A stretch of DNA of 64,000 nucleotides from Myxococcus eversor (GTDB lineage: Bacteria; Myxococcota; Myxococcia; Myxococcales; Myxococcaceae). Location: contig NZ_JAAIXY010000026.1 in the NCBI RefSeq assembly GCF_010894455.1, positions 1 through 64,000 of the forward strand, given 5' to 3'. Below the pieces are notes generated by a model that worked only from the letters and a program-made list of their open reading frames with translations, searched no databases and was not told the DNA's origin. Shown here piece after piece: positions 15,735 to 62,833 of the stretch (its first letter is position 1; the number at the start of each line of letters is the position of its first letter). The position numbers and the translations under genes were made by a program.

Positions 15735-17798
15735 CTACGTCCGGAGTGCGCCCTTCGCGCGAGGCCAGTACACGCGGAACGTGGTGCCCTCTTCCTCCGA
15801 GGAGCGCACCTCCACGCGGCCCCCGTGCGCGCGGGCAATCTGGTGGACGATGAAGAGGCCCAGGCCCAGGCTGCGCTGCTTCTGGTACGTCGACGTGGAC
15901 TCTGACGTCGCCACTGGCGTCTTGAACGGGTCGAAGATGCGCGGCAGCAGCTCCGGGGGAATGGGCTCGCCCCGGTTGTGGACCTCCAGCAACACGTCGT
16001 GCGCCTCTCCGCGCACGTGGGTGTGCACCGGCGTGTCGCCGCCGCCGTGCTGGAGGGCGTTGGACACGAGGTTCCCCAGCACCTGCGCCACCCGGTCCGG
16101 GTCCCAGTCGCCCGACGTGTCTCCCGAGGACTCGAACAGCAGCGGACGCCCCGGGTGGCTCACCTGGAGCTCCTCCAGCGTCGCCTGACACACGTCCGCC
16201 AGGTTCATCGGCTGGGGCGAGACGGGGATGCCCTCGCCCAGCTTGCTGCGCGCGAAGTCGAGGATGTCCGTAATCATGCGTCCCATGCGCCCGGCGGACT
16301 TGCGGATGCGCTCCACCGCGCGGCGCTCTGGCGCCTCCAGGTCCTCCGCGCGCGCGAGCTGGAAGGCGGATGCGCTGATGGCGTTGAGCGGATTGCGCAG
16401 GTCATGCCCCAGCACGGCGAGCAACTGCTCCCGGAAGTCCACCGCCCGCTGGAGCGCGGCCTCCGCCTGCTTGTGCTGGGTGATGTCCACCACGACGCAG
16501 CCCATGCCCAGCAACCCCGCGCCCGTGGGCTCACGCACCGGATAGAAGGTCACCTGCCAGATGTGCCGGCCCTTCTTGGGCACCAGCGCGGGCGGCGTGG
16601 CGAACTCGAAGGCCTGCAGGGGCTCGCCCGTCCGCAGCACCCGCCACAGCAGGGGCTCCATCAGGTCGGCGACCTCCGGGGGCTGCATCTGCCGGAAGGT
16701 CCGGCCCAGGTGGTCCTCGGGTGGGAAGCCATTGATGTCCGCCAGTGTCTGGTTGATGCGCAGGTAGCGCAGCTCGTGGTCCAGGTAGGCCATGCCCATG
16801 GGCGTGGCCTCCAGGAGCGCGTCCAAGAGCGCCAGCGAGCGCTGGGCCTCCACGCGCGCGGCGCGCTCCAGGTCCTGCAGCCGCGCCTGGAGGATGTACG
16901 CGCCGGCGCGCTGACACATGGTGCGAAACAACAGCAGGTCCGCGTCGGAGAAGCCGAAGGACGTGCGCGAGCCCAGATACGCCACGCCCAACAGCCGCGT
17001 GCCTTCCACCAGGGGAACGCCATAGACGGCGAGCAGGCCCACCTCGCGCAGCACCGGCAACACCACGCGCGCGTCGGTGGAGGCCGAGCGCACCCCCATC
17101 GCCTCGCGCTTCACGGCGACCTCGCCCACGAGGCCCTGGCCCAGGGCCACCGAGCTGCCCAGGGCCGTGTCGCCGCCCAGTCCCACCGCGGCGCGCACCA
17201 CCAACTGAGTGCCCTCCAGCATCAACACGCCCGCGGCATCCACCGAGAGCGTCGACTCCATCACCACGTTGAGCAGGCGCGCGAGGAGCACGTCCACGGG
17301 AGGGCCGTCCAGCGTGGCCTGCGCCATGCGGTCCAGGGCCTGGAGGCTCCGCTGCCGCTCCTCCGCGAAGCGCTGCACCGTGCGCACCACCGTCCGGTCC
17401 AACACGCCTTCCAGGCGCTCCAGCTCTCCAGGAGCCAGGGGCTGGGGCCACGCCTCCAGTCGCCGGAGGACGCACTTGCGCAGGAGCGCGAACTCGGACA
17501 CCACCTCGCCCAGGTCGAAGCCCTGGTCCAGCCTCACCAGCGCGTGCTCGTCCGCCAGCGCGAGGTCGGCGCCCTGGTCCCCCTGCTCCAGCGTGTCCGC
17601 CAGCGCGAGGAGCAGTCCTGGCATGTGGTCCAGGAGCCACGAGGGCTTCTCCCGCACGCCGATGTGCAGCGCATGCATCGCGTGCTCCCATTCCGTCAGG
17701 AGCTCCTCTCGATTCGCGCGCAGGAAGTCCGATGCCCTGAGCGGTGTTTCCCGCTCGGGCTCATCGCGCTTCGTGGAGCGTGTTTCCGGCTCCAGCAT
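15735..17798 (-). CDS. sensor histidine kinase with RsbRD-like, GAF and PAS domains
   Basis: 687 aa, soluble (no TM helix). Start ATG 17798 has CAGGAGG at good distance. Order: helical N-terminal region (~20-150) like the RsbRD_N sensor module (RANREELLTEWE), GAF (~165-320), PAS (~325-445) with a PAC-like tail ending in VVVDITQHKQAE, HisKA with H-box GHDLRNPL (His465), and a complete HATPase_c with N-box VLGNLVSNALQH, G1-like NRGEPIP and G2 GLGLGLF. It should autophosphorylate and pass phosphate to an unlinked response regulator; no receiver gene is adjacent. It is an informative comparison for the degenerate kinase at 58.7-60.2 kb, which shares its HisKA/HATPase layout. Confidence 0.87.
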   Translation of the reverse strand: MLEPETRSTKRDEPERETPLRASDFLRANREELLTEWEHAMHALHIGVREKPSWLLDHMPGLLLALADTLEQGDQGADLALADEHALVRLDQGFDLGEVVSEFALLRKCVLRRLEAWPQPLAPGELERLEGVLDRTVVRTVQRFAEERQRSLQALDRMAQATLDGPPVDVLLARLLNVVMESTLSVDAAGVLMLEGTQLVVRAAVGLGGDTALGSSVALGQGLVGEVAVKREAMGVRSASTDARVVLPVLREVGLLAVYGVPLVEGTRLLGVAYLGSRTSFGFSDADLLLFRTMCQRAGAYILQARLQDLERAARVEAQRSLALLDALLEATPMGMAYLDHELRYLRINQTLADINGFPPEDHLGRTFRQMQPPEVADLMEPLLWRVLRTGEPLQAFEFATPPALVPKKGRHIWQVTFYPVREPTGAGLLGMGCVVVDITQHKQAEAALQRAVDFREQLLAVLGHDLRNPLNAISASAFQLARAEDLEAPERRAVERIRKSAGRMGRMITDILDFARSKLGEGIPVSPQPMNLADVCQATLEELQVSHPGRPLLFESSGDTSGDWDPDRVAQVLGNLVSNALQHGGGDTPVHTHVRGEAHDVLLEVHNRGEPIPPELLPRIFDPFKTPVATSESTSTYQKQRSLGLGLFIVHQIARAHGGRVEVRSSEEEGTTFRVYWPRAKGALRT

Positions 17799-18077
17799 CA
17801 CCGACCTCCTGAGGCCCCGCCCGCCCGTGCCGTCCCCGTCTTCAATGTGGGCACGTGGGCAGTTGTATGTATGTCCGAGCCTCCGATTTGGCGGGAGACG
17901 CGGACCCGAGGGCCACTCCGGACCCTCGTCGTCCGAGGGGACCGCGCGGCGCTCGCCGGAGTCGTTCGTCGCTCCCCGCTGGACGAGGTGGGCGTCCGTC
18001 CACCGCCAATCGCTTGGCCCCCGGGGGCGAAGTCGAGGGCTGGCGGAGCGCACGCGCTCGGTTAGGGTGGGCCGCAG

Positions 18078-19040
18078 ATGCGCACCCTCCTGTTGACCCG
18101 CTCCGATGTGTCTCGCAACCTCCAGGCGCTCACCCTGTTGGAGGATTTGCGAGAGGCCTTCCGTACCGACGCCCTGGCTCGCACCGTGGCGCCTCAGCGC
18201 GTGCGCGCGCCGCTGCACGCCGAGGGCACCGCGCTGGCGATGCTCCCCGGCTGTCTGCCCGGCATCCCCGCGTACACGGTGAAGGTGCACGCGAAGTTCC
18301 CCGCGCGGACGCCCGCCATCCAGGGCGTGGTGCACCTGAACGACCTCGTCACTGGCGAGCTGCTGGCGGTGATGGACTCCGGACACCTGACGGCGGTGCG
18401 CACGGGGGTGATGGGCGCGCTGGCGGCGGACGTGCTGGCGCGGGAGGACGCGAGCCGCGTGGCCATCATCGGCGCGGGCGCGCAGGCGGTGATGCAACTC
18501 AAGTCGCTGCGACTGGTGCGCTCGCTGTCCCACGTGCGCGTCCACGACACGGACCCCACGCGCGCCTTCGCCTTCGCCACGCGGATGTATCAGGAGCTGA
18601 ACCTGCCGGTGCGGCCCGCGGATTCGGTGGCGGAGGCGGTGGAGGACGCGGACATCGTCATCGCCGCGACGTGGAGCCGTCAGCCCTTCCTCCACGCCGG
18701 CATGGTGAGGCCGGGCACGCACATCACCACGCTGGGCGCGGACGAGCCGGGCAAGGCGGAGGTCTCCGCGGAGCTCTTGCGGCAGGCGCGCTTCATCTGC
18801 GACCACCGGGGCCTGTCCGTCGCGAGCGGCGCGGTGGGCAACGTGGGGCTGGGCGAGGACGCCATCCACGCGGAGCTGGGCGAGGTGCTCGCCGGACTGA
18901 AGCCGGGGAGGACCTCTCCGGACGAGGTGACGGTGTTCGGCGCGGTGGGGTTGCCCTTCCAGGACCTGGCCGCCGCGTGGCACGTGTTCCAAGCCGCGCA
19001 GGGAGATGACACCATCCACGGCATGGACTTCGGCGCATGA
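18078..19040 (+). CDS. ornithine cyclodeaminase / mu-crystallin family protein
   Basis: 320 aa. NAD(P)-binding Rossmann motif VAIIGAGAQA (~131-140) and the family signature GVVHLNDLVTGELLAVMDSG followed by HLTAVRTG identify the OCD/Mu-crystallin family, whose members are ornithine cyclodeaminases, alanine dehydrogenases or imino-acid reductases acting in the cytosol. Substrate not deducible from sequence. Its stop overlaps the ATG of the downstream transporter by 4 bp, so the two are translationally coupled; an amino-acid or related transport substrate is plausible but unproven. Divergent from the histidine kinase (279 bp between). Confidence 0.85.
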   Translation: MRTLLLTRSDVSRNLQALTLLEDLREAFRTDALARTVAPQRVRAPLHAEGTALAMLPGCLPGIPAYTVKVHAKFPARTPAIQGVVHLNDLVTGELLAVMDSGHLTAVRTGVMGALAADVLAREDASRVAIIGAGAQAVMQLKSLRLVRSLSHVRVHDTDPTRAFAFATRMYQELNLPVRPADSVAEAVEDADIVIAATWSRQPFLHAGMVRPGTHITTLGADEPGKAEVSAELLRQARFICDHRGLSVASGAVGNVGLGEDAIHAELGEVLAGLKPGRTSPDEVTVFGAVGLPFQDLAAAWHVFQAAQGDDTIHGMDFGA

Positions 19041-57001: not shown

Positions 57002-58549
<1,548 letters not shown>

Positions 58550-58676
58550 GGGCGTTTTGCGTCCTCGAACAGGGGGCGGGCCGGGTCGGTTCGGGTCCGC
58601 CGAAAGCTAGAAGTCGGGGCCCCTTACCATGCACCCCTACCCACTGCAATGCGCACGACATTCGGGGCTTGGGGGC

Positions 58677-60152
58677 CTAGCGGCCGGGGGGCTCTCGGGG
58701 CAGCCAGACGACGAAGCGGGTGCCCCCTTGGGAGGACTCCACCGTGAGGCGTCCCCCATGGGCCACGGCCACCTGCCGGGCGATGTACAGCCCCAGGCCC
58801 AGGCCCTCCGCGCTGGCGGGGCGGCCCCGCCGGAAGGGCTCGAACAGGGTGGCGTGGTCCTCCACCGGCACCGTCAGCGAGTCATTGCGGATGGAGAGCG
58901 TCACGCCCCCCACCGCGCCCACCAGCTTCAGCAACACGGGCGTGGTGTCCGCGCTGTGCTGCAGGACGCTGCCCAGGAGGGTGTCCGCCAACTGCGTCAG
59001 TCGCGTCTCGTCCCAGTGGCCGCGCAAATCTCCCTGCGTCTCCATCAGCAGGGTGCGGCCGGGGTGGGCCTGCCGCCGCTCCTCCAGCACCCGCTCCACC
59101 AGCCGGTCCAGCATCAGCGACTCCGGGCGCACCGGCAGTCCGCCGGCCAGCCGGGCCCGGGTGAAGTCCAGCAGCTCGTGGATCATCCGCTCCATCCGCC
59201 GGGCCGCCTGGGCCATGTGCCCCACCAGCCGCTGCTGGGGCTCCTCCATCCCGCCGAGCCGCTGCAGGGCCCCGGTGCCCATCTGGATGGTCTGCAGGGG
59301 CGTGCGCAAGTCATTGCCCACCACGCCCAGGAGCTGCTCCCGGAAGTGCTCGGTGCGCTCGGCGCGCTCCTCCGCCGCCTTGCGCCCGCTGATGTCCCAG
59401 ATGGCGGCCAGCCGCACCTGCCGGCCCTCCCACGTCACGTGCTTGCCCAGCACCTCCAGGGGGATGCGCTGGCCGTCCCGGCGCACGCACAGCACCTCGT
59501 AGGGTGTCTCCACCCCCCGGGCGACGGCGGACATGACGGCGGGGCGGTACTCCGGCGCCACCCACTCCACCAGGTGGTGGCCGATCAGCTCCCGGGGCGA
59601 GTCGTGGCCCAACAGGTGCGCCAGGGCGCGGTTGGCGTCCAGGACGACGCCATTCTCATGCAGGAAGTGCCCGTCGCAGGCCACGTCCGCGAGGCTGCGC
59701 ATGTGCGACTCGCGCTCCTGCAGCCGCGTCTCCTCGCGCACACGCTCCGTGTCGTCGCGCAGCCACAGCACCACGCCCGCGAGCACCCCGGCCTGGTGCG
59801 CCGGAGACAGGCCCACGCGCAGGTGGAGCTCCCCGCTCGCGGGCGACAGCACGCCCGTCAGCGGCGCCTCCACCACGTTCTCCCCGGACAGGGCGCGCGA
59901 CAGCAGCGGGGCCAGGGACACCGCGACCCTGGGCCATACGTCGACGAGGGGACGTCCCAGGTGCGCCCGCACCTCCATGCCCGACAGCGCCGCCAACGCG
60001 CCATTCACCCACACGGGCCGCAGCTCCCTGTCCAGCAGGGCGATGCCACAACCCGTCGCGTTCAGCAGCGCGCCAAGGAAGGGCCAGGCCTCTTCGGGGG
60101 CGACCGCGAAGAGCGGGCCACCGGGAAGGGGGTGAAACAGGGACTGCGGCAT
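58677..60152 (-). CDS. PAS-domain histidine-kinase-like protein with degenerate catalytic motifs (pseudokinase)
   Basis: 491 aa, soluble. Two PAS-type domains (~20-130, ~150-255), then a HisKA/HATPase_c layout. The H-box reads VVGNDLRTPLQ with Asn280 in the place of the phosphoacceptor His (codon AAT). The N-box reads QLADTLLGSVLQHS, lacking both Asn of NLxxN (T391, S395), and the G1 region is NDSLTVPV rather than DxGxGI; only G2 (GLGLGLY) is kept. The paralogous kinase at 15.7-17.8 kb keeps all of these. It should therefore not autophosphorylate at the usual site. It lies between atpH and atpA on the same strand, so it is probably made together with F1 subunits. Confidence 0.85.
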   Translation of the reverse strand: MPQSLFHPLPGGPLFAVAPEEAWPFLGALLNATGCGIALLDRELRPVWVNGALAALSGMEVRAHLGRPLVDVWPRVAVSLAPLLSRALSGENVVEAPLTGVLSPASGELHLRVGLSPAHQAGVLAGVVLWLRDDTERVREETRLQERESHMRSLADVACDGHFLHENGVVLDANRALAHLLGHDSPRELIGHHLVEWVAPEYRPAVMSAVARGVETPYEVLCVRRDGQRIPLEVLGKHVTWEGRQVRLAAIWDISGRKAAEERAERTEHFREQLLGVVGNDLRTPLQTIQMGTGALQRLGGMEEPQQRLVGHMAQAARRMERMIHELLDFTRARLAGGLPVRPESLMLDRLVERVLEERRQAHPGRTLLMETQGDLRGHWDETRLTQLADTLLGSVLQHSADTTPVLLKLVGAVGGVTLSIRNDSLTVPVEDHATLFEPFRRGRPASAEGLGLGLYIARQVAVAHGGRLTVESSQGGTRFVVWLPREPPGR

Positions 60153-60307
60153 GTTGAGGTCGTCCAGAAAACCCGGGGTTACCCCGCGTTCCCTTGAGTA
60201 TACCTCTGACCCAGGCCTACTGGAAATGCCGGTTTGCCCCGGACTGCGGGGTCCAGGGACGACCTGCGGAGTGGGCCACCAGGCGGCGGCCCGTACTCCG
60301 GGTGTTG

Positions 60308-60853
60308 CTAGTGGCGCTTCAACTCGCGGCGCATCTCCTCCAACTGGGTGCGGAGGCTGCCGTCGTAGAGGATGCTGCCCACCTGGGCGGAGACGCCACC
60401 GAGGAGGCTGGGGTCCACGCGCGTCTCCAGGATGACGTCGCGCTGGGTGATCTGCTGGAGCGACTGGCGGAGCTCGGCCAGGGTGTCGGCGGGCAGCACG
60501 GCGGCGGTGGTGACGTTGCCGCGCACGCGTCCGGCCCGGGCGTCGGCCATGTCGCGGAAGACGCGGGCGATGTCGGCCACGTAGGGCAGGCGGTTGCGGT
60601 CCACCAGCAGCCGCAGGGTGTTGGCCAGCACGGGCTCCAGGTGGGGGACCAGCTTCATGACCCCTTCCACGACCTGGGCACGCTGGGCGCGCGAGTAGAT
60701 GGGGTTGTGAAGCACGTCCGCCATCTCCGGGTTCTTCGCGAAGATATCCGCGAAGGAGGAGAGCTGCTCGGATACGGCGTCGATGCGGCCCACCTCCGAC
60801 GAAACGTCGAGGAGGGCACGGGCGTAGCGGCGGGCAATGGACACGTTCACCAT
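60308..60853 (-). CDS. atpH: ATP synthase delta (OSCP) subunit
   Basis: 181 aa from ATG 60853 (the frame upstream to 61015 is a shadow). The family start [17 protein letters not shown], the central [18 protein letters not shown] and the C-terminal [19 protein letters not shown], then [10 protein letters not shown], are typical of the delta/OSCP stalk subunit. It connects F1 to the peripheral stalk. Usually followed directly by atpA; here a kinase-like gene of 1.5 kb intervenes. No atpB, atpE or atpF gene lies upstream; a divergent Hsp70 gene does. Confidence 0.93.
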
Positions 60854-61009: not shown

Positions 61010-62833
61010 ATGCACGACCCCGTCATCGGCATCGACCTGGGTACCACCAACAGCGCCGTCGCCACCGTGGAGGACGGCCGACCGCGCCTCATCCCCTCAC
61101 GCGCGGGAGGCCGCCTCACGCCTTCCGTGCTCGGTGTGACGAAGGCCGGCGAGCGCGTCGTGGGGCAGCAAGCCCAAGCGCTCGCGGAGGAGCATCCCGA
61201 CTCCGTTGTCTGGGCCACGAAGCGTTTCCTTGGCCGGCGCTACACGCCGGAACTGGTGCAACAGGCAAAGGCTCTCGTTCCCTATCCATTGGTCGCCGGC
61301 CCCTCGGGCGACGTGCGCGTGAAGCTGGCCGGGCGCGTGCTGCCCGTCACCCAGGTCTCCGCGATGATTCTCGGCGAGCTGGCACTCGACGCGCAGGCGC
61401 ACTTCGGCCGCACCGTCACCAAGTGTGTCATCACCGTCCCCGCCAACTTCGACGACAACCAGCGCCAGGCCACGCGTGAAGCGGCCACCATCGCCGGGCT
61501 GGATGTCGTCCGGTTGGTGAACGAGCCCACCGCGGCGGCGCTCGCGTATGGCCTGTCGCGCGGCTTCGAGGGCAGCGCGCTGGTGTTCGACTTGGGCGGC
61601 GGCACGTTCGATGTCTCCATCCTCGACGTGAAGTCCGGCGTCTTCGAGGTGCGCGCCACCGGTGGTGACCCGCGCCTGGGTGGAGAGGACTTCGACCAGC
61701 GCATCGTCCAGTGGTTGCTGGCGCAGGTGGATGACGAGCTCCGCCACGTCGTGTCCCAGGATGCGCAGAGCCTGCGGCGCCTGAAGGTCGCGGCGGAGGC
61801 GGCCAAGCGCGAGTTGACGGAGCACGAGGAAGCGACTGTCACCGTGTCGGGGCTGGGCGACCATTCCGCGGGTGGGCGGCGCACGGAGCTGGAGACGGTG
61901 CTCACGCGCTCCTTCTTCGAGACGTTGTCGGAGCCGCTGTCCCGCCGCTGCCTGGAGGTGTGCCAGGGCGTGATGCGCGAGGCGAAGATGGACCCGCGCT
62001 CGGTGGACGTGGTGCTGCTGGTGGGTGGCATGACGCGCGTGCCGCTGGTGCGCCGGCTGGTGGCGGACTTCTTCGGCCGCGCGCCCTCCACGGACGTGCA
62101 CCCGGACGAGGCGGTGGCGCTGGGCGCGGCGGTGCAGGCGGACGAGCTGCTTCGCCAGTCGGGTCAGGCGCTGCTGTTGGACGTGGCCAGCCAGAGCCTG
62201 GGCGTGGGCGTGCTGGGCGGACGCGTGAAGCGGCTCATCGCGAAGAACACGGGCGTGCCCGTCGTCGCGCGGGACATCTTCTTCCCCGGGACGTCCGGCC
62301 AGGCCGAGGCGCGCATCCCCGTGTACCAGGGCGAGAGCGAGTTCCAGGACGAGAACCACAAGCTGGGTGAAGTGGTGCTCAAGCACCTGCACGTGGCCGC
62401 GCGTGGTGACGTGCCGCTGGAGGTCGTCTTCGAGCTGTCCGGCGAGGCGATTCTTTCCGTGAAGGCCACGGACCTGACCACCGGCAACATGGAGACGGTG
62501 CGCCTGGAGGCGCGCGCGGGCCTGCCGCACGGCGAGGCGGAGAAGCTGGGCGCGGAGCAGGCGAACTACGCGAAGTCGCAGGGCGTGGTGGATGCGAAGC
62601 GCGCGGAGGAGCTGTTCCGCAAGCTGCTGGAGCGCGGCGAGAAGCTGGCGCGGATGCTCCAGAAGAGCGCGCAGGAGAACCCCAGTCCTGAGGCGGAGGC
62701 CGCGGTGGGCACGGTGCAGCGGCTGCTCGACGGCGGGCGCACCGCGCTGGAAGGCAAGGACGCGGCGAAGTGCGCCGCCATCGCCCGGCAGCTCACGCAG
62801 TTGTTGTCCGGCAAGCAGGAGCCGCGCGCCTGA
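61010..62833 (+). CDS. Hsp70-family chaperone (DnaK paralogue)
   Basis: 607 aa from ATG 61010. ATPase domain with [50 protein letters not shown] and the [14 protein letters not shown] motif; then the substrate-binding beta sandwich and a helical lid. The C-terminal tail is Ala/Glu-rich and ends GKQEPRA, without the EEVD-like or DnaK Gly/Asp tail, so it is probably a specialised DnaK paralogue rather than the housekeeping one. Divergent from atpH; its stop is 2 bp before the next gene's ATG, so it is operonic with the receiver-PilZ gene. Confidence 0.92.

Follow-up and report, generated by a model that had tools for sequence, protein, structure and literature searches.

RetS tunes GacS by heterodimerisation, and the nifL gene typically adjoins nifA. 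NifL combines PAS sensing with protein contact: it binds ATP and ADP without hydrolysing them and controls NifA directly, and the C-terminal domain of the Klebsiella pneumoniae protein, which lacks nucleotide-binding features, still binds NifA (accessible parts of PMC12540587 and PMC9866876). In DivL, as excerpts of PMC4211667 describe, a Tyr is conserved (Ala in one species), the N, G1, F and G2 boxes are retained, and DivK~P sits on the receiver-docking module. A ChrS pseudokinase works through ChrS-HrrS heterodimers, according to the portion of PMC9491836 available.

Here we describe a gene derived from a histidine kinase, located between atpH and atpA in a 64,000-nucleotide stretch of the Myxococcus eversor genome (contig NZ_JAAIXY010000026.1, positions 1 to 64,000; hereafter the window). 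Among the matches listed from open-licence PMC papers, we recognised no earlier report of this gene.

Domains, motifs and paralogues

The reading frame runs from an ATG to a TAG (Table 1), and Pfam recognises in its product PAS_4, PAS_9/PAS, HisKA (38.7 bits, cut-off 26.9) and HATPase_c (67.3 bits, cut-off 26.4), all above cut-off. An antisense frame at 58629-60197 (+) was taken as a high-GC shadow. An earlier note on this DNA, made from the sequence alone, had reported Asn for the H-box His, loss of both N-box Asn, and survival of the PAS domains and G2, and all of this was borne out. The H-box reads LLGVVG-N-DLRTPL, with Asn280 where the acceptor His is expected; the N-box is QLADTLLGSVLQHS, from which both Asn are gone (T391, S395); two PAS domains are recognised, and the F-box (LFEPF) and G2 (GLGLGL) are unbroken.

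Table 1. Positions of the gene, its motifs and the neighbouring features in the window
Feature	Coordinates	Strand	Basis or remark
PAS-PAS-HisKA-HATPase_c pseudokinase gene, 491 aa	58677..60152	-	ORF, Pfam, motif reading, AlphaFold2 model
Codon 280, AAT (Asn), phospho-acceptor site	59313..59315	-	Sequence reading
N-box residues 391-395, TLLGS	58968..58982	-	T391 and S395 replace two Asn
G2 box GLGLGL, residues 450-455, kept	58788..58805	-	Motif reading, orthologue columns
atpH (ATP synthase delta/OSCP), upstream neighbour	60308..60853	-	Pfam
atpA (ATP synthase alpha), downstream neighbour	57002..58549	-	ORF, Pfam
Promoter-like element TTTCCA - 18 nt - TATACT, atpH-kinase gap	60197..60226	-	Pattern reading
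Dyad AGGTCGTCC (60257-60265) / GGACGACCT (60157-60165), minus-strand reading	60157..60265	.	Exact in part of genus only
Intact paralogue RsbRD_N-GAF-PAS-HisKA-HATPase_c, control	15735..18200	-	Pfam; start approximate

The same genome supplied a yardstick for these losses. It contains 145 kinase-core matches, of which the nearest 29 besides the protein itself were compared. Like the window protein, these 29 and the paralogue at 15.7 kb belong to the HisKA-HATPase_c subfamily, and Asn is common among them at the first G1 position (N in 17 of the 29, D in 12). Unlike it, the nearest 29 of the 145 keep the acceptor His in 29/29, the second N-box Asn in 29/29 and the first in 28/29. The earlier note had also argued that the intact paralogue at 15.7 kb throws the loss into relief, and it does: its best matches in 27 genomes have His and both N-box Asn in 27/27, a control set in which two members (L115, L116) align only from residue 440 on and are perhaps not strict orthologues.

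The canonical G1 motif has Asp at the position where the window protein (SIRNDSLTVP) has Asn, and the next Gly has become S425. Every one of the 27 sequences that best match the 15.7-kb paralogue carries NxG in G1, so Asn in this box is ordinary in the subfamily, whereas the other losses are not. The view that G1 as a whole had been lost thus applies only to the Gly after this Asn. Set against an active HisKA-type kinase, the protein has the F-box, G2, the HisKA and HATPase_c domains and the fold, and lacks the acceptor His and both N-box Asn. With Asn at the acceptor site and both N-box Asn lost, the protein of the window lineage very probably cannot autophosphorylate.

Orthologues and the atpH-atpA junction

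We searched 96 genomes of the family for full matches at E <= 1e-100 and obtained 61 orthologues, each in its own genome and within 8 of 26 genera; three of the orthologues come from Myxococcus qinghaiensis, M. dinghuensis and M. llanfairpwllgwyngyll... None of the 61 has an internal stop codon. The count leaves out L030 (G028, on a contig of 3.9 kb, with 44% across residues 263-491) and four weak, distant matches. Within the eight genera, 3 of 64 genomes lack a full match; all belong to genus g31 (L070, L071, L073), and in each a contig ends near atpA, with part of a kinase visible in L071. Among genomes without the gene, atpA was matched in 26 of the 27 searched, and 20 stretches upstream of it were examined. 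In 16 of these no match to this kinase was found upstream of atpA, the rest being the three g31 contig ends and the short L077; atpH falls inside the stretch in three of the 16 (L072, L084, L087). A tblastn search of the stretch near atpA in G034 found no remnant of the kinase, and an opposite-strand ORF lies in the gap.

Asn also occupies the acceptor site in relatives that are 98% and 93% identical. Together with the presence of the gene in 61 genomes, this rules out the sequencing artefact or strain quirk that the earlier note had named as a way in which its reading could fail; another part of that proviso, that orthologues keep His, is true of 21 of the 61.

The gene order anticipated by the earlier note, atpH-kinase-atpA, was seen in 58 of 61 loci. 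On the same strand, atpH lies upstream in 61/61 orthologues and atpA downstream in 58/61, the other three (L042, L045, L061) reaching a contig end first. The kinase gene is separated from atpH by 108-170 bases and from atpA by 123-365, excluding L050, whose atpA match begins at residue 182. At nine loci from the eight genera, hsp70 lies upstream of atpH in 9/9 and atpA is followed by a HAD hydrolase gene in 8/9, so that the whole block is syntenic. In the window, the Hsp70-like gene (61010-62833, +) is divergent from atpH, which it adjoins at all nine loci and in L072.

The gamma-subunit gene is located on a different contig. In the kinase-less L084 (459-2558) and L087 (971-3055), a protein with Ser/Thr kinase and TonB_C domains is encoded between atpH and atpA, which makes another signalling kinase at the same junction, and in L072 the place is taken by an opposite-strand ORF of 195 aa. 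Upstream of atpA in L078 (G106, a genome without the gene), positions 974-2797 encode a 607-aa protein with two Pkinase stretches.

The gap between atpH and the kinase gene contains a promoter-like element, conserved in the genus; the first T of its TATACT (60197-60202) stands 50 nt before the kinase ATG in the window. Throughout the window's genus, g1, TATACT (24) or TATAGT (3) occurs 50-56 nt before the ATG (27/27). Neither hexamer was found in any of the 11 members of g8, g32 and g4, where TATGGT was seen in the four rows viewed. The kinase-atpA gap holds a separate conserved block, also promoter-like. Two dyad arms about 100 nt apart, AGGTCGTCC and GGACGACCT, straddle the promoter-like element of the first gap, the right arm ending 4 nt before the ATG; this dyad is a possible operator. 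A search of the gaps for RNA elements returned only four Rfam matches, with E up to 0.5 and far under gathering scores.

Catalytic residues, docking face and selection

Across the 61 orthologues, the acceptor residue is H in 21, N in 12, T in 9, D in 7, A in 4, Q, S and V in 2 each, and G and P in 1 each; Tyr occurs in none (0/61). His is kept throughout g8 (6/6), g32 (4/4), g4 (1/1) and g34 (1/1), in 5/7 members of g33, 1/13 of g31, 0/2 of g30 and 3/27 of g1. The three g1 members that retain it (L004, L005, L009) render the loss incomplete even in the window's own clade, where the 27 residues are T 9, N 7, A 4, H 3, V 2, Q 1 and S 1. With His still present in 21 of the 61, an ordinary kinase is the probable ancestral form.

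The N-box has followed a course of its own. His and both N-box Asn are present in 11/11 members of g8, g32 and g4. In g1, N391 is found in 13/27 and N395 in 2/27, never both together; g31 has N391 in 0/13 and N395 in 12/13; and g30 has lost His and kept both N-box Asn, a protein that may still bind ATP. The earlier note had asked whether the window's own replacements are conserved. Within the genus, S395 is present in 24/27 and T391 in 9/27, and Asn280, shared by 7/27, is not a conserved replacement.

Phylogenetic reconstruction, in which the root and the direction of change were assumed with the His-keeping g8, g32 and g4 as outgroup, points to repeated change. A kinase tree built with the motif columns removed requires at least 5 changes between His and another residue and 16 residue changes, and a DNA tree of atpH and atpA yields identical counts (at least 5, and 16). 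If His was never regained, there were 10 losses on the kinase tree and 10 on the atpH-atpA tree.

In g1 and g31, the two largest His-losing genera, only one of the 223 kinase-core columns varies more than position 280, which is invariant in g8, g32 and g4. We took five HK853 interface positions from the titles of structures 4jas and 4jau and aligned them to residues 288, 291, 295, 312 and 315; the HK853 rewiring letters in these titles agree with the alignment used for mapping. In both g1 (p 0.00012) and g31 (p 0.0008), these five and 280 together have a higher mean entropy than DHp columns drawn at random; the p values serve as guides only, the test having been designed after 280 and 291 had been seen on top and the sequences being related. 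Without 280 the p values are 0.002 (g1) and 0.011 (g31). The same test of all six positions gave p 0.44 in g8, g32 and g4 and p 0.86 for the control paralogue; with the His-keeping L057, L058, L060 and L062 added to these three genera, p was 0.23 with 280 and 0.12 without it. R283, P285 and L286 are invariant in g1, and some receiver contact is therefore possible. Our reading of these patterns is that receiver docking and transfer would no longer be selected, while the dimer and the CA scaffold still would be.

Codon-model estimates (GY+F3X4) were used from 18 of 20 fits, the g31 values for PAS1 and PAS2 (exactly 1.000) being excluded; omega ranged over 0.04-0.19, and over 0.04-0.11 for HisKA and HATPase. 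The values for HisKA, HATPase, PAS1 and PAS2 were 0.044, 0.085, 0.094 and 0.080 in g1, 0.057, 0.080, 0.187 and 0.109 in g8, g32 and g4, and 0.087, 0.082, 0.151 and 0.101 in g33 and g34; g31 gave 0.098 for HisKA and 0.113 for HATPase. On this model, the g1 core is as constrained as that of the His-keeping genera, and the g31 core may be somewhat relaxed.

Simple counting gave a more varied picture. Comparing the window sequence with the two N-bearing relatives nearest to it gave dN 0 and dS 0.14 for HisKA (three sequences, 72 codons). Counted dN/dS for HATPase was 0.09 in the window group, 0.24 in the A/V/S group, 0.28 in the T clade, 0.33 in L023/L027, 0.48 in seven D-bearing g31 members and 0.30 in the His-keeping g8 and g32; for L065/L066, HisKA came out at 1.43, a figure that depends on a dS of 0.02. 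We are inclined to trust the codon model over the counts, because the counts take no account of base composition, extreme in these sequences, and some relaxation in certain clades is possible. The window protein fits a pseudokinase derived from a histidine kinase, with the fold kept, catalytic residues lost and the frame under purifying selection whose strength varies by method. It does not look like a pseudogene, given 61/61 open frames and omega of 0.04-0.19 in 18 of 20 fits.

Structural relatives and competing explanations

An AlphaFold2 model, built with 56 of the 61 orthologues as input (L017, L024, L026, L042 and L061 left out), shows both PAS folds, two DHp helices and a CA domain at a mean pLDDT of 82.0 and a pTM of 0.45, which leaves the domain arrangement unsure. 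Foldseek placed the NifL-NifA structure 9qq6 second among the matches of the model, with a whole-length rmsd of 21.4, presumably because the domain arrangements differ. DivL (4q20) and RetS structures, including the co-complex 7n0e, were also listed. The model superposes on DivL 4q20_B with Z 21.5 and rmsd 5.2 over 221 aligned residues, and on the ordinary kinase ZraS 9jfj_C with Z 22.1 and rmsd 4.6 over 227. Ordinary kinases match equally well, so the fold alone gives no basis for choosing. As a separate observation, C159, D160, G161 and H165 of PAS2 (residues 159-165) are invariant in 61/61 orthologues, a possible ligand or cofactor site.

The explanation we favour, with a probability of about 60%, is a selected PAS-PAS sensor pseudokinase that signals by protein contact, in the manner of NifL, to a putative partner. 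The eight Myxococcaceae genera would share an ancestor in which an ordinary, orphan histidine kinase already stood at the atpH-atpA junction; the phosphotransfer residues of this kinase have been lost repeatedly, with frame and fold kept under purifying selection. We infer that a PAS ligand or the redox state may shift the dimeric DHp-CA module, which would act on a partner by contact as NifL does, through a surface likely to differ from the canonical receiver-docking face. We consider unlikely a heterodimer with an active paralogous histidine kinase, which the pseudokinase would tune in the style of RetS-GacS or ChrS-HrrS. The predicted dimer fold, the conserved core, the His in 29/29 of the nearest own-genome paralogues (best 29 of 145), the RetS structures among the fold matches and the ChrS-HrrS precedent (PMC9491836, in part) are all consistent with such pairing, but the gene neighbourhood points to no partner kinase.

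More improbable is the proposal of the earlier note that the protein touches the F1 part of ATP synthase and thereby monitors or modulates it. The place between atpH and atpA is fixed in 58 of 61 loci and kept down to 47-50% protein identity; this adjacency is real, yet it is weak evidence for an F1 link, because the hsp70 and HAD neighbours are equally fixed, the kinase gene has its own promoter-like element, relatives have other genes at the junction and the gamma-subunit gene is located elsewhere. What stands of that proposal is contact rather than phosphotransfer as the likeliest mode; F1 monitoring has nothing positive beyond adjacency. It seems slightly less probable still that a PAS-gated pseudokinase, in parallel across several lineages and once its phosphotransfer face was freed, came to couple redox or energy state to ATP synthase through binding to the F1 subunits encoded beside it. 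A decaying gene heading for loss is very improbable: there is drift at the acceptor, N-box and docking sites, 13 of 56 members no longer give a HisKA match at E 0.001 and counted dN/dS is raised in some clades, but all 61 frames are free of internal stops, no loss is shown in the eight genera (in the 3 of 64 genomes that lack a full match, contigs end at that place), model omega for the core is 0.04-0.11 and HisKA is unchanged in amino acids in the window group, so that neutral decay is disfavoured. There is equally little to recommend another enzymatic activity, be it phosphorylation of a partner in trans by the CA domain or the use of T, S, D or N as the acceptor; the F-box and G2 are kept and some clades have Thr, Asp or Ser, but Ala, Val, Gly, Pro and Gln are among the replacements, and the window protein is without either N-box Asn.

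One gene at one locus carries all kinase motifs in some genera and encodes a pseudokinase in others. If contact signalling is the right description, the acceptor site, which has changed 5 to 10 times and shows nine replacement residues, amounts to a natural replicate experiment in turning a kinase into a contact signalling protein, and Myxococcus is a genus with laboratory genetics.

In RetS and, as far as the accessible text goes, the ChrS pseudokinase, a histidine kinase core acts on a partner kinase through a heterodimer, as the less likely pairing hypothesis would have it here. The ChrS variant differs from the window gene in having arisen by laboratory evolution through a frameshift in its CA domain (PMC9491836, in part). 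With NifL of Azotobacter vinelandii and Klebsiella pneumoniae, in so far as it is described in the parts available, the protein shares the PAS-PAS-H-GHKL layout, seen both by Pfam and in the model, and 9qq6 is the second Foldseek match. Azotobacter NifL has kept a conserved His along with its N, G1, F and G2 motifs (same parts of PMC12540587 and PMC9866876); the window protein has lost the acceptor and the N-box, and where nifA would be expected next door the window gene has hsp70, atpH, atpA and HAD as neighbours. Caulobacter crescentus DivL is likewise a pseudokinase derived from a histidine kinase, has PAS domains, has its acceptor His replaced and matches the fold (4q20). DivL is marked by an acceptor Tyr with the other boxes intact; the window protein has Asn and a lost N-box, and its family, in contrast to DivL as the excerpts present it, combines a hypervariable acceptor with N-box loss and drifting docking sites. 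In DivL the Tyr is nearly fixed, whereas here an invariant acceptor has become almost the most variable site of a core whose fold is still constrained.
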